Source of the DNA: Candidatus Tayloriibacteriota bacterium
Lineage (GTDB): Bacteria; Patescibacteriota; Minisyncoccia; Phycocordibacterales; SIBU01
Length of the DNA stretch: 48,588 bases
Assembly (NCBI GenBank): GCA_016188455.1
Contig: JACPHR010000013.1
Span: 1 to 48,588, forward strand
Direction: 5' to 3'
Shown here in pieces: positions 11,451 to 43,478 of the stretch. Made by a program: the position numbers and the translations under genes. Numbering within the stretch: position 1 is the stretch's first letter; each line of letters begins with the position of its first letter. The notes under the pieces are model-generated. The model was not told the DNA's origin. It ran no database searches and worked only from the letters and a program-made list of their open reading frames with translations.

Positions 11451-11490
11451 TTGTAACCTAACTCAAGCGTACGCTTGGATTAGGTTACAA
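11451..11490. repeat. 40-bp palindrome, copy A of the pair around the first PaaX/Cas2-like gene
   Basis: It is a perfectly centred palindrome (centre 11470/11471) with 18 of 20 arm positions matched and no loop. The core is aagcgt|acgctt with outer arms ttgtaaccta / taggttacaa. It lies 19 bases past the gene's stop codon and has no T run, so it is not a standard terminator. It closely resembles the copy at 12130-12169. Confidence 0.85.
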
Positions 11491-11509: not shown

Positions 11510-12070
11510 TCAAGGCAATTTGAAATTTTTCTTCAATAAGTCTTCGTTATCTATCCTCACCGCCTCAATATAACTTATGCTGTCACCAAGAAAAAGGTGC
11601 TCTTTCATAAAATCAATTTCATCTTTACATTCGAACGGAAAAACAAATATTGATTTCTGATACGGATAAAAACCTAGTTCTTTTAATCTGACGACAAACC
11701 TGTCCCTACTTCTCTTTCTGTTCTCCTTAATGTCGTAAGTAACAAGACGCCAGAGACCGTCCCAACGTTTCGGGGTTTCAATTTTCATCTCCTCAAAATC
11801 ATACTGGAGTGACCTTTTTTTACCCTTTTCGGTTATTTCAATTACCTCTTTGCCATCCCTATAAAAGGAGTTGACATATTTTGCTTTCTTAAGTCTGGAA
11901 ACGGAACGCGTAAATCGCCGCTTATCGCCCTTTAAATAATTGACAATGATTTTTGCCGCGTACGGCGAAGATAAAACCAGCGCCACACCACCGGCAATCA
12001 AAAGTGACTTGAGAATGATTTTCCCAATTTCTCCTCTGGAATATTTCTTTTTGTTATTTTCTGAGATCAT
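11510..12070 (-). CDS. PaaX-like winged-helix protein with a Cas2-like C-terminal domain
   Basis: The product is 186 residues. Residues ~18-100 form a winged-helix-type region (KIILKSLLIAGGVALV ... SRLKKAKYVNSFYRDGKEVIEITEKGKK). Residues ~108-186 follow the beta-alpha-beta pattern of the Cas2/PaaX C-terminal fold: WRLVTYDIKENRKRSRDRF, then LKELGFYPYQKSIFVFPFEC, then a helix and a last strand. The Asp ending the first strand (TYDI) matches the Cas2 active-site Asp. PaaX proteins are transcription repressors and Cas2 is a CRISPR adaptation protein; there is no cas1 or CRISPR array here, so an adaptation role is unlikely. The gene stands alone between two copies of one palindrome and has a paralogue at 41623. 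A TACAAT box near 12128-12133 could be its promoter. DNA binding is likely; the real function is unknown. Confidence 0.7.
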   Translation of the reverse strand: MISENNKKKYSRGEIGKIILKSLLIAGGVALVLSSPYAAKIIVNYLKGDKRRFTRSVSRLKKAKYVNSFYRDGKEVIEITEKGKKRSLQYDFEEMKIETPKRWDGLWRLVTYDIKENRKRSRDRFVVRLKELGFYPYQKSIFVFPFECKDEIDFMKEHLFLGDSISYIEAVRIDNEDLLKKNFKLP

Positions 12071-12129: not shown

Positions 12130-12169
12130 TTGTAACATAACTCAGGCGTACGCCTGAGTTAGGTAACTT
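12130..12169. repeat. 40-bp palindrome, copy B of the pair around the first PaaX/Cas2-like gene
   Basis: The core caggcgt|acgcctg is perfect over 12 bases per arm (taactcaggcgt), with two mismatches further out. It starts with ttgtaac like copy A. It lies 60 bases upstream of the gene's ATG and would cover the -35 region of the TACAAT promoter. Confidence 0.85.
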
Positions 12170-17110: not shown

Positions 17111-17948
17111 GGTAATTAGGGCGAAACGTAACCAAAATAGATGCTGATAAACAGTTTGAACAGGTTGTCACTACGGTGATTGAATCGGTACTCCACTTCT
17201 TTAAGATACATCGGAAAATGATATTTGGAAACCCCGCGATAATTGTACAGAATATGTTTCGCAAAGCTCCAAAATCCTTCGATCCCGTTGATATGATTCT
17301 TGCCGCGGTAGGCAAACGCCTTGCCGTGATTCAAGCGGTGGTGTTTCCCGAAACGATGGAGCGAGTTGTAGCTTCTGAAGGTGTCCGTGTAATACACCGA
17401 GCCCTTTCTGGTATGCTGCTTGATATGCGTCATCAATGCATCGGCCGTCACTCGTTCCACGACTTTGGTGTACACCCTGCCGTCACGCTCCAGAAGCCCC
17501 AATACCACGCTTTTTCCGGCCGCGCCTCGTCCGCGCTTGCCCTTGCGTCTGCCGCCGAAGTAGCTCTCGTCCATTTCTACTTCGCCGTTCAATTTGCCGC
17601 CCTCAAGCTCGGCCACATGGTAGATTGCCACTCGGAGACGCTGGTACACGCGCGTAATCGTCTTGTAGTCGGTACCGAGGTCATGCGAGAGACGATACGC
17701 TGGCTGCTGTTGGTAGAACCCCTGCACAATGGCAATCTCCATTCTGATACGCTTCAACGATTTCTGTTTTCCACAGCTTTTGTTCCGACATCGGATGTAT
17801 CCCCGACCTGTCTTCGAAACCTTGAACGAACCGCAAAAAACACACTTCTTTCCCCTCAAAAAGTTGGCCGCGCAACTGAAAACGTTCTTTCGCCCTTGTG
17901 CCATATGGATATTTTACTACCATATGGTTACGAAACGCCCTAATTACC
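17111..17948 (-). mobile_element. complete IS1595-type insertion sequence
   Basis: The terminal inverted repeats are 24 bases long (17111-17134 and 17925-17948) and match at 21 positions; the three differences are together (aaa against ttt). The 8-base direct repeat tagaattt lies on both sides (17103-17110 and 17949-17956), the target duplication length typical of the IS1595 family. The element is 838 bp and holds one intact transposase gene whose stop codon lies inside the left repeat. Perfect target duplications and an open gene suggest recent insertion. Confidence 0.93.
17116..17904 (-). CDS. IS1595-family transposase
   Basis: The 262-residue protein moves its own element. An N-terminal zinc-ribbon has CVFC (21-24) and C39/C44. 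A helix-turn-helix-like region (AYRLSHDLGTDYKTITRVYQR, ~69-89) is followed by the DDE-type ISXO2-like domain. The probable acidic residues are Asp112 in EVEMDESYFGGRRKG and Asp174 in YYTDTFRSY; the third position is Asn206 or Glu209 in HINGIEGFWSFAKH. GRRKGKRGRGAAGKS is characteristic of this family. The frame is uninterrupted. The gene fills almost the whole element and has no partner gene. Confidence 0.93.
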   Translation of the reverse strand: MAQGRKNVFSCAANFLRGKKCVFCGSFKVSKTGRGYIRCRNKSCGKQKSLKRIRMEIAIVQGFYQQQPAYRLSHDLGTDYKTITRVYQRLRVAIYHVAELEGGKLNGEVEMDESYFGGRRKGKRGRGAAGKSVVLGLLERDGRVYTKVVERVTADALMTHIKQHTRKGSVYYTDTFRSYNSLHRFGKHHRLNHGKAFAYRGKNHINGIEGFWSFAKHILYNYRGVSKYHFPMYLKEVEYRFNHRSDNLFKLFISIYFGYVSP

Positions 17949-27386: not shown

Positions 27387-27656
27387 ATGCTTACCAAAAC
27401 CAAAAAACTGCTGATAATCAAAGAAGTGGCCACTCACGACAAGGACACCGGCTCATCCGAGGTCCAAATAGCGTTGCTCACCAAAAAAATTGAAGCGCTG
27501 GCCGCTCACCTGAAAAAGAACGACAAGGACAAGCACTCGCGCCGCGGACTGCTTTCCATGGTGGCCGACAGGCAGACTCACATGAAGTATTTGGAAAAGA
27601 ACAACGTCAAGCGGTACAACGCGATTACGCGAAAAATGGAGCTTAAGAAGAAATAG
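27387..27656 (+). CDS. rpsO: 30S ribosomal protein S15
   Basis: S15 binds the central domain of 16S rRNA early in 30S assembly. The 89-residue protein is full length: helix 1 (TKTKKLLIIKEVATHDKDTG), then SSEVQIALLTKKIEALAAHLKK, the loop DKHSRRGLLSMVADRQ with the conserved HSRRGL, and the last helix YLEKNNVKRYNAITRKMEL. In many bacteria rpsO is followed by pnp; here pnp lies 2.3 kb downstream with three genes between. The classic S15 autoregulatory leader is absent because the mRNA appears leaderless. The stop codon is the first base-triplet bordering a heptamer array. Confidence 0.96.
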   Translation: MLTKTKKLLIIKEVATHDKDTGSSEVQIALLTKKIEALAAHLKKNDKDKHSRRGLLSMVADRQTHMKYLEKNNVKRYNAITRKMELKKK

Positions 27657-27682
27657 AATCAGGAATCAAGAATCATGAATCA
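27655..27682. repeat. heptamer array, left of the S23-type g gene
   Basis: Four exact NGAATCA units: agaatca, ggaatca, agaatca, tgaatca. The array begins in the rpsO stop codon and contains the ATG of the next gene. Its counterpart at 28102 faces it. Confidence 0.75.
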
Positions 27683-28067
27683 CGATAAGGAAACGGGACC
27701 CGATAAGATTCGTGAATTTACTGATTTGAAAGTATGGCAAGAATCTCACAAACTTGTCATCTTGATTTATAAAGAAACAAAAAGTTTCCCGAGGGAAGAA
27801 ATCTTCGGCTTGACTAGCCAAATGCGGAGAGCTGCTGTTTCTGTAAGTTCTAACATAGCTGAGGGTTTCGGACGACAAAGCTACAAAGAAAAGGTACAAT
27901 TCTATTATCTCGCTCATGGGTCGTTAGTTGAATTAAAAAATCAACTTTTTATCGCGAGAGATATTTTGTATATCACAGTACCTCATTTTGAAACGTTAAT
28001 GGAACAAGTGGCTCAAGTCCAAAGACTGCTTCAGGGTTTAATCAGTAAGTCGAAAACTTTTATATAA
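27675..28067 (+). CDS. four-helix-bundle protein (S23 / 23S rRNA intervening-sequence family)
   Basis: The 130-residue protein matches the four-helix-bundle family first found in intervening sequences of 23S rRNA: FTDLKVWQESHKLVILIYKE, then FPREEIFGLTSQMRRAAVSV, then SSNIAEGFGRQS and QFYYLAHGSLVELKNQL. All four helices are present. Relatives include the avd accessory protein of diversity-generating retroelements, but no reverse transcriptase is here. The family binds nucleic acid; its role as a lone chromosomal gene is unknown. The gene is bracketed by two heptamer arrays in opposite orientation, and its ATG comes from the left array, which suggests it may have arrived as a unit. Confidence 0.9.
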   Translation: MNHDKETGPDKIREFTDLKVWQESHKLVILIYKETKSFPREEIFGLTSQMRRAAVSVSSNIAEGFGRQSYKEKVQFYYLAHGSLVELKNQLFIARDILYITVPHFETLMEQVAQVQRLLQGLISKSKTFI

Positions 28068-28101
28068 ATAATTTATTTCACTATTCCGGTTTCAGGTCTG
28101 T

Positions 28102-28134
28102 ATTCTTGATTCCTGATTCTTGATTCGTGATTCT
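28102..28134. repeat. heptamer array, right of the S23-type gene
   Basis: On the minus strand it reads agaatca, cgaatca, agaatca, ggaatca, agaat: more than four exact NGAATCA units, in opposite orientation to the array at 27655. It ends 7 bases before the next gene's ATG. Confidence 0.75.
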
Positions 28135-28141
28135 ATCCAAA

Positions 28142-35743: not shown

Positions 35744-36115
35744 AATCAAACCTGTCGGTAAAAATAAGTTTTGTGAAAAAGACGAGAACTTCAACTTCTA
35801 AACACTATTCTAATAAATTAAAAGTGCTTTGCAAGTCAATCATTTTAATGAGCTCCAAGTTTGTTACTAGAAATTTCAAATTATTCTTACCCCACGGTAC
35901 CCAACTGGGGCGTACGCCCCAGTTGGGTACCGTGGGGGAGGAGGATAGAATTAAGTAAGGAATGAAAAAACGCCACAGGGGAACCGTGGAGAACAAAGGG
36001 GGGAGATTATTCCAAAACTGCTTGCTTTGCAAGCGGGTCGGTTTCGCAGTCTTTTTTCTCCGTTCTCCGTTAGTCTGCGTGAAATCAGCGTCAGTCCGCG
36101 GAAAATCCGTTCTTC
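35744..36115. other. gap with one large palindrome, no gene seen
   Basis: Apart from the palindrome at 35889-35938, it holds a gcttgc/gcaagc hairpin (~36020-36034) and a low-complexity stretch (gtctgcgtgaaatcagcg) of the kind that recurs between genes in CPR genomes. No convincing coding frame. Confidence 0.4.
35889..35938. repeat. 50-bp near-perfect palindrome
   Basis: The centre is 35913/35914 and 24 of 25 arm positions match. The inner arm caactggggcgt|acgccccagttg resembles the taactcaggcgt|acgcctgagtta core of the palindromes around the first PaaX/Cas2-like gene. No Cas2-like gene is next to it, so it looks like an orphan copy. It has no T run. Confidence 0.8.
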
Positions 36116-39548: not shown

Positions 39549-40424
39549 ATGTTTTACAATAAAAAGTCGCTCGGCCAAAACTTCCTGCGCTCAAAAAAAA
39601 TCCTCAGCGACATCGTAAGGGCGGGGAATATTCTGCCGGCAGAAACGGTGCTTGAGGCGGGGCCCGGAACCGGAAACTTGACGGCGGCGCTGCTCGCCTC
39701 CGGCGCGCGGGTCGTGGCGGTTGAAAAAGACCGCCGACTCATTCCTCCGCTTAAAGAAAAATTCGCGCATGAAATTCAAATCGGAAGATTGAAACTTATT
39801 GAGGCTGATGTTCTTTCTTTCGACGTCAAAGGTCAATTGTCAAAAGTCAACGGTTGGAAGATTGTAGCCAATCTTCCATACTACATCACGGGCGCTTTCA
39901 TCAGAAAATTTCTGGAAACCGAATATCAGCCCTCCTGTATGGTTCTCCTCCTTCAAAAAGAAGTGGCCGAAAGAATCGTGGCGCGCGATGGCTCGCCCCT
40001 TCACCTTTGCCACTGTCATAGACATAAACAACTTTCCGAAGTAGAAAGACAAAATCTCAAACAACTTTATGAAAAAGGTCTGGGGCAAAGGTGTGGGGGT
40101 AAAGAAAGCCTTTTTTCCATGAGCGTCAAAGCCTATGGCACGCCGCGCTATATTGAAACGGTTAAGGCCGGAAACTTTTCGCCGGCACCGAAAGTGGACT
40201 CGGCAATTATCTCTATAGAAAACATTTCAAAAAAATTCTTTAATGGATTTTCCGAGAGGGAATTTTTCAAAATCCTCAAAGCGGGCTTCGCCCACAAGCG
40301 GAAGCAGCTCGTGGGCACGCTCGGCCTTGACGTAGAAACCCTAAGACGCGCGGGTATCGCGCCAAAAGCGCGGCCGGAGGAATTGGGTCTAAAAGATTGG
40401 CTCTGTCTGTTAAAAAGTCTTTAG
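39549..40424 (+). CDS. rsmA: 16S rRNA dimethyladenosine transferase RsmA (KsgA)
   Basis: RsmA dimethylates two adjacent adenines near the 3' end of 16S rRNA as a late 30S check. Motifs: the start phrase SLGQNFLRSKKIL, the SAM-binding VLEAGPGTGNL (34-44), VVAVEKDRRL, and the catalytic NLPYYIT (108-114). The 291-residue protein is longer than usual because residues ~149-184 (from SPLHLCHC to RCGGKE) are an insertion between ERIVARDG and ESLFSMSVKAYG. That insert's DNA ends in inverted repeats, so it looks like a palindromic element that entered in frame. The ATG at 39549 was chosen because the TATAAT box overlaps any earlier start. The stop overlaps the convergent gene's stop. Confidence 0.93.
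   Translation: MFYNKKSLGQNFLRSKKILSDIVRAGNILPAETVLEAGPGTGNLTAALLASGARVVAVEKDRRLIPPLKEKFAHEIQIGRLKLIEADVLSFDVKGQLSKVNGWKIVANLPYYITGAFIRKFLETEYQPSCMVLLLQKEVAERIVARDGSPLHLCHCHRHKQLSEVERQNLKQLYEKGLGQRCGGKESLFSMSVKAYGTPRYIETVKAGNFSPAPKVDSAIISIENISKKFFNGFSEREFFKILKAGFAHKRKQLVGTLGLDVETLRRAGIAPKARPEELGLKDWLCLLKSL
39995..40100. repeat. in-frame insertion element inside rsmA
   Basis: gcccct-tcacctttgcc (39995-40011) and ggcaaaggtg-tgggggt (40084-40100) are inverted repeats, with a perfect 10-base core. They bound a ~106-base segment with no counterpart in ordinary RsmA. Confidence 0.6.
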
Positions 40425-41401
40425 AACAAGGAGCTCCCTGTCGTCGCCCCGATCTGGCCCTCTGATGGAATAGAAGTGCACCCATACCCTATGTAAATCT
40501 GGCATTGAGAGCCGCTAGTGTATTCCCCCAAGACATTGAGTGTAAAGGGAAGATTGTACCCCATGTACATTTGCGTCCCCATGTAATAAGTGAGGAGCAC
40601 GACATAGGTAGGAGCAGTCGGAGTAATGGTTACCAACCAATTGCCGCTACAGGTGCAGTAAAAAGGAAATAAAACTCGTCCGCCAAAAGGCGTGCCGAAA
40701 GCATAAGCTTTTTCACCGATAAAAAATTTCAGAACTGTATTGAGAAATGCCGAAAAATTTTCGCCGCCTTTATATGATTGAACGCCATGGATGGGTACGC
40801 CACTTTTTTGAAACTCTTCTACAAAACGTTTCTCGGGCTTTTGAAGCGCGATATCCTTCGCCGCGGCGTCTTTGATTGTGGTGAGCTGATCTCTGCCGTA
40901 GCCTTGCTCTGCGCCAACATTGTCAAGCGCCTGAAAAAAAGCCTTTTGGTCAAATTGAACCTGGTCCAAACTGGAAGTGGCTAACACCTGCCCGCCGCCT
41001 GTCCGACTGGCTTCGCGATTTGAGGCGGGAGGACTAGCAACGGCAGAATTTTCCACAACTTCGGCGGTTTGGCTCAAGAAAGTTATTTTTTTTCTGGTGA
41101 GCGGCCCGACAAACCCGGTGCCTTGGTACAGGCCAGCGGGCAGAAGTATCTCCGACCTGTACTTTTCTTGAAATTTCACCACGGCCCGCCAGGTCGCTCG
41201 GCCAAAAAAGCTTGTTTCGTTGCCCGGCGAGCCGGGACCCTCTTCGGAAACTCTGGTGTCCGAATCCTGGTTCAAAAAACGTTGCAATTCCAAAACAGCC
41301 GCTCCCGCAGAACCCGGCCGCAAGTTTTGGTTAAAAGTAAATGCCGCGGCAAAGGACGGGGCCAACAACAATAGAAAAGTCAAACGCCAAAAGATTTTCA
41401 T
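40421..41401 (-). CDS. exported peptidoglycan-binding-domain protein
   Basis: The 326-residue protein starts with a signal peptide (FWRLTFLLLLAPSFAAAF, 4-21). A PG_binding_1-like domain follows (~24-112): LRPGSAGAAVLELQRFLNQ, GRATWRAVVKFQEKY and GFVGPLTRKKITFL, the usual helix-turn pattern. A spacer and helical part lie at ~140-210, and a C-terminal beta-rich part (~230-326) has a CTCSGNW phrase and two further Cys that may form disulfides. It is probably attached to the cell wall. Proteins with this N-terminal domain are common in Parcubacteria. Its stop codon overlaps that of rsmA (convergent, 4 bases), so read-through of either gene would make antisense RNA. Confidence 0.82.
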   Translation of the reverse strand: MKIFWRLTFLLLLAPSFAAAFTFNQNLRPGSAGAAVLELQRFLNQDSDTRVSEEGPGSPGNETSFFGRATWRAVVKFQEKYRSEILLPAGLYQGTGFVGPLTRKKITFLSQTAEVVENSAVASPPASNREASRTGGGQVLATSSLDQVQFDQKAFFQALDNVGAEQGYGRDQLTTIKDAAAKDIALQKPEKRFVEEFQKSGVPIHGVQSYKGGENFSAFLNTVLKFFIGEKAYAFGTPFGGRVLFPFYCTCSGNWLVTITPTAPTYVVLLTYYMGTQMYMGYNLPFTLNVLGEYTSGSQCQIYIGYGCTSIPSEGQIGATTGSSLF

Positions 41402-41565: not shown

Positions 41566-41607
41566 CATCCATGAATAAGATTGCTATAGCAATCTTATTC
41601 GTGGATG
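41566..41607. repeat. 42-bp palindrome, upstream copy around the second PaaX/Cas2-like gene
   Basis: The centre is gattgcta|tagcaatc with 20 of 21 arm positions paired and one G-T pair. It ends two bases before the -10 box (41609-41614), so it covers the -35 region. Confidence 0.88.
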
Positions 41608-41622
41608 TTATAATTAGGCGAT

Positions 41623-42198
41623 ATGGGAAAGTTGGAACAAGAGGTAAAAATTCGTACCCGCAATACAAAAATCAAGCGTGCCATACTGACTGCTCTTGTG
41701 GTTACCGTAGCCGGCTCCCTCAACCCGACTGCCATGGTGTCAGTTGTGTTGCGCGCTCTCAATATAAAAAGGGATAAATATCGTTCGGCCCGGAACACCT
41801 TTTACTCCGCCCGCGGGCGACTGCTTCGGCAAGGACTGATTGAGTATAATAATGGTTTTTTCAATGTGACTGATGAAGGGAGACGAGCGCTTCAGAGTAT
41901 AGAATTCAGCAATGCCAAACCGAGTAAGCCTCCTCGCTGGGACAAAAAATGGCGCCTGCTTATTTTTGACGTAAAGGAAGAACGCAAAACTCAGCGAGAA
42001 AAAATCCGCCGCACGCTTATTGCCATCGGTTTCCTCCGTTTGCAAGACAGCGTGTGGGTATATCCTTATGACTGTGAAGATTTGGTTGCATTGTTGAAAG
42101 CTGATTTTAAAGTGGGCAAGGAACTGTTGTATTTAATTGTGGATGCCATTGAGAACGATTCGTGGCTTAAGAAAGAATTTAATCTTCCTGCCAATTAA
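41623..42198 (+). CDS. PaaX-like winged-helix protein with a Cas2-like C-terminal domain (second copy)
   Basis: The 191-residue protein has the same plan as the one at 11510. A basic N terminus leads to a winged-helix region (~20-95: RNTFYSARGRLLRQGLIEYNN and GFFNVTDEGRRAL), then the Cas2-like part (~108-191: WRLLIFDVKEERKTQREKIR, then LIAIGFLRLQDSVWVYPYDC, then ELLYLIVDAIENDSWLKKEF). The strand-1 Asp (IFDV) and the SVWVYPYDC strand match the paralogue's TYDI and SIFVFPFEC. Overall identity is low, so the two copies are old. TATAAT (41609-41614) lies 8 bases before the ATG. The gene is enclosed by two copies of a palindrome different from that of the first unit. Function unknown; DNA binding at the palindromes is the simplest idea. 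Confidence 0.72.
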   Translation: MGKLEQEVKIRTRNTKIKRAILTALVVTVAGSLNPTAMVSVVLRALNIKRDKYRSARNTFYSARGRLLRQGLIEYNNGFFNVTDEGRRALQSIEFSNAKPSKPPRWDKKWRLLIFDVKEERKTQREKIRRTLIAIGFLRLQDSVWVYPYDCEDLVALLKADFKVGKELLYLIVDAIENDSWLKKEFNLPAN

Positions 42199-42329
42199 CA
42201 AAGACTAAGGATTGGCTGGCACAAACCAAACGGCCGCGAAGAGGCCGTGCGGTTCTCTTTATTGCGCTGTCTGCGGACTGTCTTCAAACTGCTTTCAAAC
42301 TATGTTCTTAATGTTTTCTGTCATTCCTT

Positions 42330-42369
42330 GTCCATCGTTAAGATTGCTATAGCAATCTTAAAGATGGAC
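42330..42369. repeat. 40-bp palindrome, downstream copy around the second PaaX/Cas2-like gene
   Basis: The centre is gattgcta|tagcaatc with 19 of 20 arm positions matched. It shares taagattgcta|tagcaatctta exactly with the copy at 41566 and starts 131 bases past the stop. It has no T run. Confidence 0.88.
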
Positions 42370-42518
42370 GAACTCCTAAAATTGTTACTCCGCAAGTGTT
42401 TGTCTACTTGTGTTTGTCTGCAAAACTGGGGAAACAGCTTGCCGATTTCTCTGATATACTTAAGGCACAAAGAGTGTGCGGGGCCTTCTCCCACGCGTTT
42501 CTTTGCTTAACAATGGCC

Positions 42519-43478
42519 ATGCCAAGCAGAAAAATTATTCTGGCCGCCTCGGTCGCAGTTGTCGTCATTGCTATCACTCTTTTATTGACCCGCCCGCCAA
42601 AAGTCAGCTACACGGCGGCTACGGCCGGTAGCGCCACCACCACTGGCGTTCTGGCCAAAGACTCCGACCAGGACGGCCTCAAAGATTGGGAGGAAGAGTT
42701 GTGGAAAACCGACCCGCAGAATCCCGATACCGACGGCGACGGCGCGCCGGACGGCCAAGAAATCAAACTGGGCCGAAACCCGCTCCTCAAAGGCCCGAAC
42801 GACAGGCTGGACAGCGAAACCGTCAGCAATAAAATCAACTCTCAAACGGACGCCGACCTTTCCGATACCGACAAATTCTCCCGCGAGCTCTTTGTCAAAA
42901 TCATCGCCGCCAACCAATCGCCTACGCCCCCCACCGAGGCCGACTTCCAAAATTTCCTCAACGCGACCATCAAAAACGAGATAGACAGCCAAAAACTCAA
43001 AATCCACACCGCCGCTGATTTTTCGATTGATATGGCGGAAACTGCCGAAAAAATCAAAACCTACGGCAACGCCATCGCCGCCATGCTCAAAAAGCCGCCG
43101 CCCCAAAAACTTGAATATGAAATCAGCACAGTAGAGCGGGCGGAGAAAAATAAAGACCCGTCCGAGCTCAAAGCGCTTGAAGGCAACATCACGGCCTATA
43201 AGCACATTGAGAATGATTTGCTCAAACTGACCGTGCCCCAGAGCGCCCTAGAAATGCATCTCGCGCTCGCCAATGCCACAGCGGGCATGGCTTGGAGCAT
43301 CACGGGGCTTTCATACATTATGACCGACCCTTTAAAAGCCTTGCCGGGAGTGGCCGGCTACGCGGAGAATGCTCAAAACTTTTCCGATGCCGTCCGGGCT
43401 TTTAGAGGCTACTTTGAGAACGCGAATGTCACATTTAACCCCGAAGATGATGGCTACCGTTTCTTTGATGAGTTATAA
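42519..43478 (+). CDS. anchored protein with a TSP3/EF-hand-like calcium segment
   Basis: The 319-residue protein has an N-terminal membrane or signal helix (IILAASVAVVVIAITLLL, ~6-23). A calcium-binding-type repeat follows (DSDQDGLKDWEEELWKTDP and NPDTDGDGAPDGQEIKLGRNP, ~48-87), like thrombospondin type-3 or EF-hand loops. The rest (~100-319) is helical (FSRELFVKIIAANQS, AALLKKPPP-like segment, LALANATAGMAWSITGLSYI). In Parcubacteria such proteins often precede genes for a type IV secretion-like complex, as here. The ATG at 42519 was chosen because it puts the hydrophobic helix at the start; the frame opens at 42396. The next gene follows after 44 bases, so an operon is likely. Confidence 0.75.
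   Translation: MPSRKIILAASVAVVVIAITLLLTRPPKVSYTAATAGSATTTGVLAKDSDQDGLKDWEEELWKTDPQNPDTDGDGAPDGQEIKLGRNPLLKGPNDRLDSETVSNKINSQTDADLSDTDKFSRELFVKIIAANQSPTPPTEADFQNFLNATIKNEIDSQKLKIHTAADFSIDMAETAEKIKTYGNAIAAMLKKPPPQKLEYEISTVERAEKNKDPSELKALEGNITAYKHIENDLLKLTVPQSALEMHLALANATAGMAWSITGLSYIMTDPLKALPGVAGYAENAQNFSDAVRAFRGYFENANVTFNPEDDGYRFFDEL

Follow-up and report, generated by a model that had tools for sequence, protein, structure and literature searches.

The RAYT/REP system of the gammaproteobacteria (TnpA-REP, REPtron, BIME) consists of a small gene that always lies between two palindromes; gene and palindromes diverge together, complementary mutations keep the palindromes intact, and palindrome abundance tracks the gene (PMC2817692, PMC8266576). 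The enzyme has a Y1 (HUH) domain, and the palindromes carry a GTAG/CGTC tag with a GTAG head and occur in more than 100 solo copies. IS200/IS605 elements, which also encode a Y1 transposase, are single-gene units of ~0.7-0.8 kb with hairpin-forming ends and no obvious target duplication. On the protein side, the PaaX repressor (TIGR02277; PDB 8a39) joins a winged helix to a following Cas2-like domain in a chain of ~300 aa that includes a C-terminal domain and lacks the catalytic Asp, while CRISPR Cas2 and VapD (PF09827, TIGR01573) have a ferredoxin-like Cas2 domain with a catalytic Asp in strand 1, VapD forming a two-gene toxin-antitoxin unit with its antitoxin.

Here we describe a palindrome-bracketed gene in a 48,588-nt stretch of DNA (the window; contig JACPHR010000013.1, assembly GCA_016188455.1) from a Candidatus Tayloriibacteriota bacterium. 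The locus resembles RAYT/REP in having one small gene between two palindromes (on both sides in 58 of 76 relatives), in cognate intergenic solo palindromes whose abundance tracks the gene, although one family has none, and in palindromes that are kept by complementary mutations and diverge together with the enzyme. It differs in that the protein has a winged helix and a Cas2 fold in place of the Y1 domain, that the palindromes are loop-less, ~38 bp long, centred on CNNNNG and free of tag and head, and that solos number fewer than 10 and occur in Patescibacteria. The size, single gene and hairpin-forming ends of IS200/IS605 recur here, as does the lack of an obvious target duplication, but the window protein contains no HUH motif, no histidine and no Y1_Tnp match at E<=1. 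It has the domain order of PaaX, yet is 191 aa long, without the C-terminal domain and with the Asp; its Cas2-like domain, unlike CRISPR Cas2 and VapD, is fused to a winged helix and paired with palindromes, and the unit has a single ORF where VapD toxin-antitoxin modules have two genes. A search of openly accessible journal papers turned up no account linking palindromes to PaaX- or Cas2-like genes, and to our knowledge the Cas2 fold is not known as a mobile-DNA enzyme from any transposable element. The system lacks features that define RAYT, PaaX and VapD, and we regard it as new in kind, though it probably works in a RAYT-like way.

Organization of the unit

The unit spans 804 bp (41566-42369) and consists of palindrome, gene and palindrome. 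The left palindrome (41566-41607) is 42 bp long, with 21-nt arms that are 95% complementary, no loop and the centre CTATAG, and holds one of nine exact core copies in the genome; the right palindrome (42330-42369) is 40 bp long with 20-nt arms, also 95% complementary. As proposed in the preliminary description, both enclose the gene at 41623-42198 (plus strand) and share an identical 22-bp core, TAAGATTGCTATAGCAATCTTA. Between them lies one ORF on the coding strand. Dinucleotide shuffles gave 0.19 core matches (<=3 mismatches) per 48 kb, and the real window has two exact ones. When 196 kb of this genome were scanned for palindromes, 73 scored >=12, ordinary hairpins included, while the block-shuffled control (two replicates) returned a single score-12 palindrome and none above. 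The palindromes of the unit have no T-runs beside their stems and no loop, and a reading as terminators was rejected for the lack of T-runs.

A sister unit in the window, unit 1, comprises a palindrome downstream of its gene (11451-11490, centre CGTACG), the gene itself (11510-12070, minus strand; 186 aa, PaaX_M E 1.8e-16) and an upstream palindrome (12130-12167). Its core, GCGTACGC, is unlike TAAGATTGCTATAGCAATCTTA, just as had been noted earlier. The accompanying claim of two independent cases in 48 kb did not hold, as the two genes are divergent paralogues of one family with a shared palindrome architecture. The 893-kb genome has 10 such paralogues, and in the matching segments the other nine are 27-55% identical to the window protein. 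Palindromes of a third family, on contig 14, occur solely as the two flanking copies, with no solos.

Other repeat-associated features were observed in the window. A solo 58-bp near-perfect palindrome at 35885-35942 has a CGTACG centre with other arms and could be part of a further unit of this family. An apparently complete IS1595-family insertion sequence occupies 17111-17948, with a DDE_Tnp_IS1595 ORF at 17116-17904 (minus strand) and 24-nt terminal inverted repeats. At 27653-28136, an ORF resembling 23S rRNA intervening-sequence proteins (27675-28067) lies between 33-nt inverted repeats of ATTC/GATTC units, and is possibly another repeat-bracketed single-gene unit.

Features of the protein

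The window protein has an N-terminal winged helix and matches the Cas2-like profile PaaX_M (PF20803) with an E-value of 8e-19. It scores 25.7 bits against TIGR01573 (Cas2), just over the cutoff of 24.5, and 20.3 bits against PF09827, under the cutoff of 23.8; the PADLOC Cas2 profile also matches, more weakly than PaaX_M. Against the full-length PaaX model TIGR02277 it reaches 37.8 bits, with a cutoff of 264.55, and PaaX_M alone passes. The nearest fold to its AlphaFold model (pLDDT 91) is E. coli PaaX (PDB 8a39), which is the best PDB match by sequence as well, followed by Cas2 structures; the match list of a VIA-align structure search was filled by winged-helix proteins and carries little information on the Cas2 half.

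The Pfam Cas2 alignment puts Asp116 at Cas2 position 8, which makes it the Cas2 catalytic Asp; characterised Cas2 and VapD proteins have a conserved Asp7/8/10 (PMC9510766). Asp116, Arg125, Ser143 and Pro148 are each kept in 109 of 109 relatives, and E. coli PaaX has no Asp at the position matching Asp116. Because this residue is invariant in the relatives and missing in E. coli PaaX, the Cas2-like family looks nuclease-competent from its sequence, unlike the repressor, though keeping the Asp is in itself no proof of such an activity. Neither cas1 nor a CRISPR array was present among the neighbouring ORFs scanned around the unit.

Distribution of the palindromes

The genome contains the 16-mer core of the window palindrome nine times without mismatch: two copies adjoin the gene, and the other seven are not near any gene of this family; a reversed control pattern has no occurrence. 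As the flanks of these intergenic solos are unrelated, the repeated sequence is confined to the ~42-bp palindrome. No GTAG/CGTC tetranucleotide tag stands beside any of the nine copies. The unit 1 palindrome occurs seven times, as two flanks and five solos, one of which has a swapped GATC centre. None of 20 solos from two genomes lies inside an ORF; eight are situated between converging genes, eight between tandem genes, two between diverging genes and two at contig edges, and solo positions thus avoid divergent promoter regions (2/20).

Two solos of unit 1 (L177 and L180, on contigs 24 and 1) resemble each other for a further 35-40 bp on both sides of the palindrome, forming a 112-nt repeat that is 84% identical, which suggests a larger mobilised or duplicated segment; no palindrome-free copy of this repeat was found that would give precise junctions. 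Another dispersed palindrome type, AGGTCAGACCTAT..ATAGGTCTGACCT, is present in the same genome (L032:5661-5710 and L024:407-451), with no cognate gene identified for it.

Among 98 genomes of the order, the window core (<=2 mismatches) was detected in two, this genome and that of Ca. Taylorbacteria RIFCSPHIGHO2_02_FULL_46_13 (G093). The latter encodes seven paralogues, among them the closest relatives found of the window protein (63 and 59% identical). All deviations from the core in G093 are symmetric: the variant AAGAATGC..GCATTCTT stands beside the contig-29 gene and at solos, and AAGATAGC..GCTATCTT at two more sites. With the core confined to two genomes that both have near relatives of the protein, and with the two sides matching within loci, the suggestion that each protein is matched to its own palindrome was supported. 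Many core copies without an adjacent gene had been named in advance as a finding that would speak against this pairing. Such copies do exist, as the seven solos, but only in genomes that encode the gene, and this confinement argues for dispersal in trans rather than chance.

Relatives were found by a contig scan with an alignment of a closer subset, the whole membership being too diverse for one alignment. The scan yielded at least 535 relatives, and the named top matches are all Patescibacteria. The gene is present, patchily, in 90 of 287 genomes across the phylum (about a third of the Patescibacteria sampled), with up to 11 copies per genome; no relatives were found in viral contigs, phages or plasmids. 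For 76 independent relatives with both flanks available, a palindrome scoring >=9 was present upstream in 67 (88%), downstream in 67 (88%) and on both sides in 76%, while 4.4% of 1793 control windows contained one. The 20-nt centres on the two sides of a locus agree at 0.81, and sides taken from different loci at 0.49. Between the upstream palindrome and the start codon the gap is short, with a median of 14.5 nt. A strict scan had left many relatives apparently without palindromes, an impression dispelled by a mismatch-tolerant scan, which found them in nearly all. Among 20 more distant loci, matched palindromes clearly enclose many, among them loci in two single-contig genomes (L214, L215), and a few show no clear palindrome within the scanned stretch.

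Palindrome plan and co-divergence

When 138 palindromes were aligned on their centres, one plan was common to all: a centre CNNNNG in which the C/G pair at position 3 never varies, a spacer with weaker pairing at positions 5-10 (64-78% paired), and outer arms at positions 11-18 (91-98% paired) that end abruptly at 19-20. Asymmetric centres (GGTC/GACC) are common among the relatives. A spacer that can be unpaired and these asymmetric centres are compatible with two pictures, a dimer that binds the duplex and leaves the spacer free, or a hairpin closed by a tetraloop. Within the nine copies of the window family, variation falls at arm positions 12-15 and nearly always affects both sides at once, and 95.6% of cells pair; the covariation score of 0.263 was unreached in 500 shuffles, and slid structures gave at most 0.071. 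Judged from these sequences, the compensation observed within the window family would favour a fold-back step.

Comparison of the two sides in 41 palindrome pairs of relatives gave 81 compensated and 37 one-sided pair differences, a ratio biased upward by the picking of palindromes for symmetry; few double changes are expected by chance. Comparing palindrome cores with the protein phylogeny, the check proposed in the preliminary description, showed that the centre class follows the tree, with 20 changes against a mean of 26.7 and a minimum of 22 in 300 shuffles. The matching of protein and palindrome is strongly supported.

Presence and absence at orthologous loci

The left neighbour of the unit (40421-41401, minus strand) and the right neighbour, a TSP3-repeat protein (42513-43478, plus strand), are both kept in the same-genus genomes, where they directly abut. 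Their spacing is ~75-95 bp in all three of these genomes, which lack the unit, and ~1.1 kb here; the extra DNA (~1 kb) exceeds the 804-bp unit. At two solo sites on contig 15 the palindrome is missing in two congeners. A unit of G093 lies in a ribosomal-protein operon, between rplE and rpsN, where the congener G010 has a short spacer only. Presence and absence at orthologous sites, as expected of a transposable element, were therefore found for the window unit against three congeners and for a second unit in G093, though not to the base: the congeners are ~70% identical, their intergenic DNA is unalignable, the additional DNA at the window locus is longer than the unit, and the comparison is one of genes, which gave neither a precise empty site nor an exact junction or target duplication. 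In many cases different species carry a unit at orthologous loci, which indicates that they move rarely or are domesticated.

The ~1.9 kb between rplE and rpsN in G093 (L082:500-1900) also holds a probable membrane-protein gene adjoining the Cas2-like unit, and other short dispersed repeats.

Interpretation

We lean towards reading the unit as a mobile or selfish element bracketed by palindromes and comparable in its working to RAYT/REP, but with a different, Cas2-fold enzyme, its mobility and its DNA cleavage both being inferred. The protein would act as a homodimer, holding the outer arms (positions 11-18) with its two winged helices; its paired Cas2 domains would cleave the CNNNNG in the centre, either in duplex form or in an extruded hairpin or cruciform. 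Acting in trans on its own palindromes, the protein would enable these ~40-bp sequences, and on rare occasions the complete unit, to reach intergenic sites by copying or transfer. Recognition would be specific to each paralogue and its own palindrome, and for this reason protein and palindrome would diverge together. Counting against the element reading are the low solo numbers (5-7) and at least one family with none.

It is unlikely that the unit undergoes site-specific excision and integration, with a Cas2-like dimer recombining palindromic sites at their central four bases and the solos being empty sites or excision footprints. Such a scheme would account for a site copy at each unit end together with empty single sites, for the CNNNNG centre with its invariant C/G at position 3, and for the asymmetric GGTC/GACC centres, which could set orientation like the overlap sequences of site-specific recombination. 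Neither strand transfer nor recombinase chemistry is known for Cas2, however, the solos outnumber the units 5-7 to 1, and the solo arms differ.

Quite improbable is an autoregulatory PaaX-like repressor with the palindromes as operators and the solos as its regulon. The palindrome downstream is found just as regularly as that upstream, whose nearness to the start codon would otherwise suit an operator, and the solos shun divergent promoter regions and often stand between converging genes. The winged helix, the PaaX_M match and the nearest fold all recall PaaX, but the Cas2 catalytic Asp is invariant here, and arm pairing is kept while the arm sequence changes; 10 paralogues in 0.9 Mb and congeners without the unit at the same locus also speak against a repressor. 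That the palindromes are ordinary bidirectional terminators or chromosome-organising repeats, associated with the gene incidentally, is very improbable: strong stems and the frequent position of solos between converging genes would fit, yet T-runs next to the stems and loops are missing, both sides match the gene family-specifically, and the core is missing wherever a surveyed genome has no near relative of the gene.

Conclusions

Extending the element reading to the whole family, the chances seem about even that these units form a phylum-wide mobile or selfish class of Patescibacteria, whose sole enzyme, a DNA-binding nuclease of the Cas2 type, would recognise its own ~40-bp palindrome and bring about its spread. 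Such a REP/RAYT-like system would have evolved apart from the HUH transposases and would offer a candidate non-CRISPR setting of the Cas2 fold in mobile DNA. If this is true, a new class of mobile-DNA enzyme, built on the Cas2 fold, would be present in about a third of the genomes sampled from a phylum that is huge, largely uncultured and marked by very small genomes, and most such genes would carry a PaaX or Cas2 annotation. REP/RAYT-like biology would then have arisen more than once, hundreds of natural protein-palindrome pairs would become available for reading a DNA-recognition code, and the pre-CRISPR role of Cas2 would become testable.
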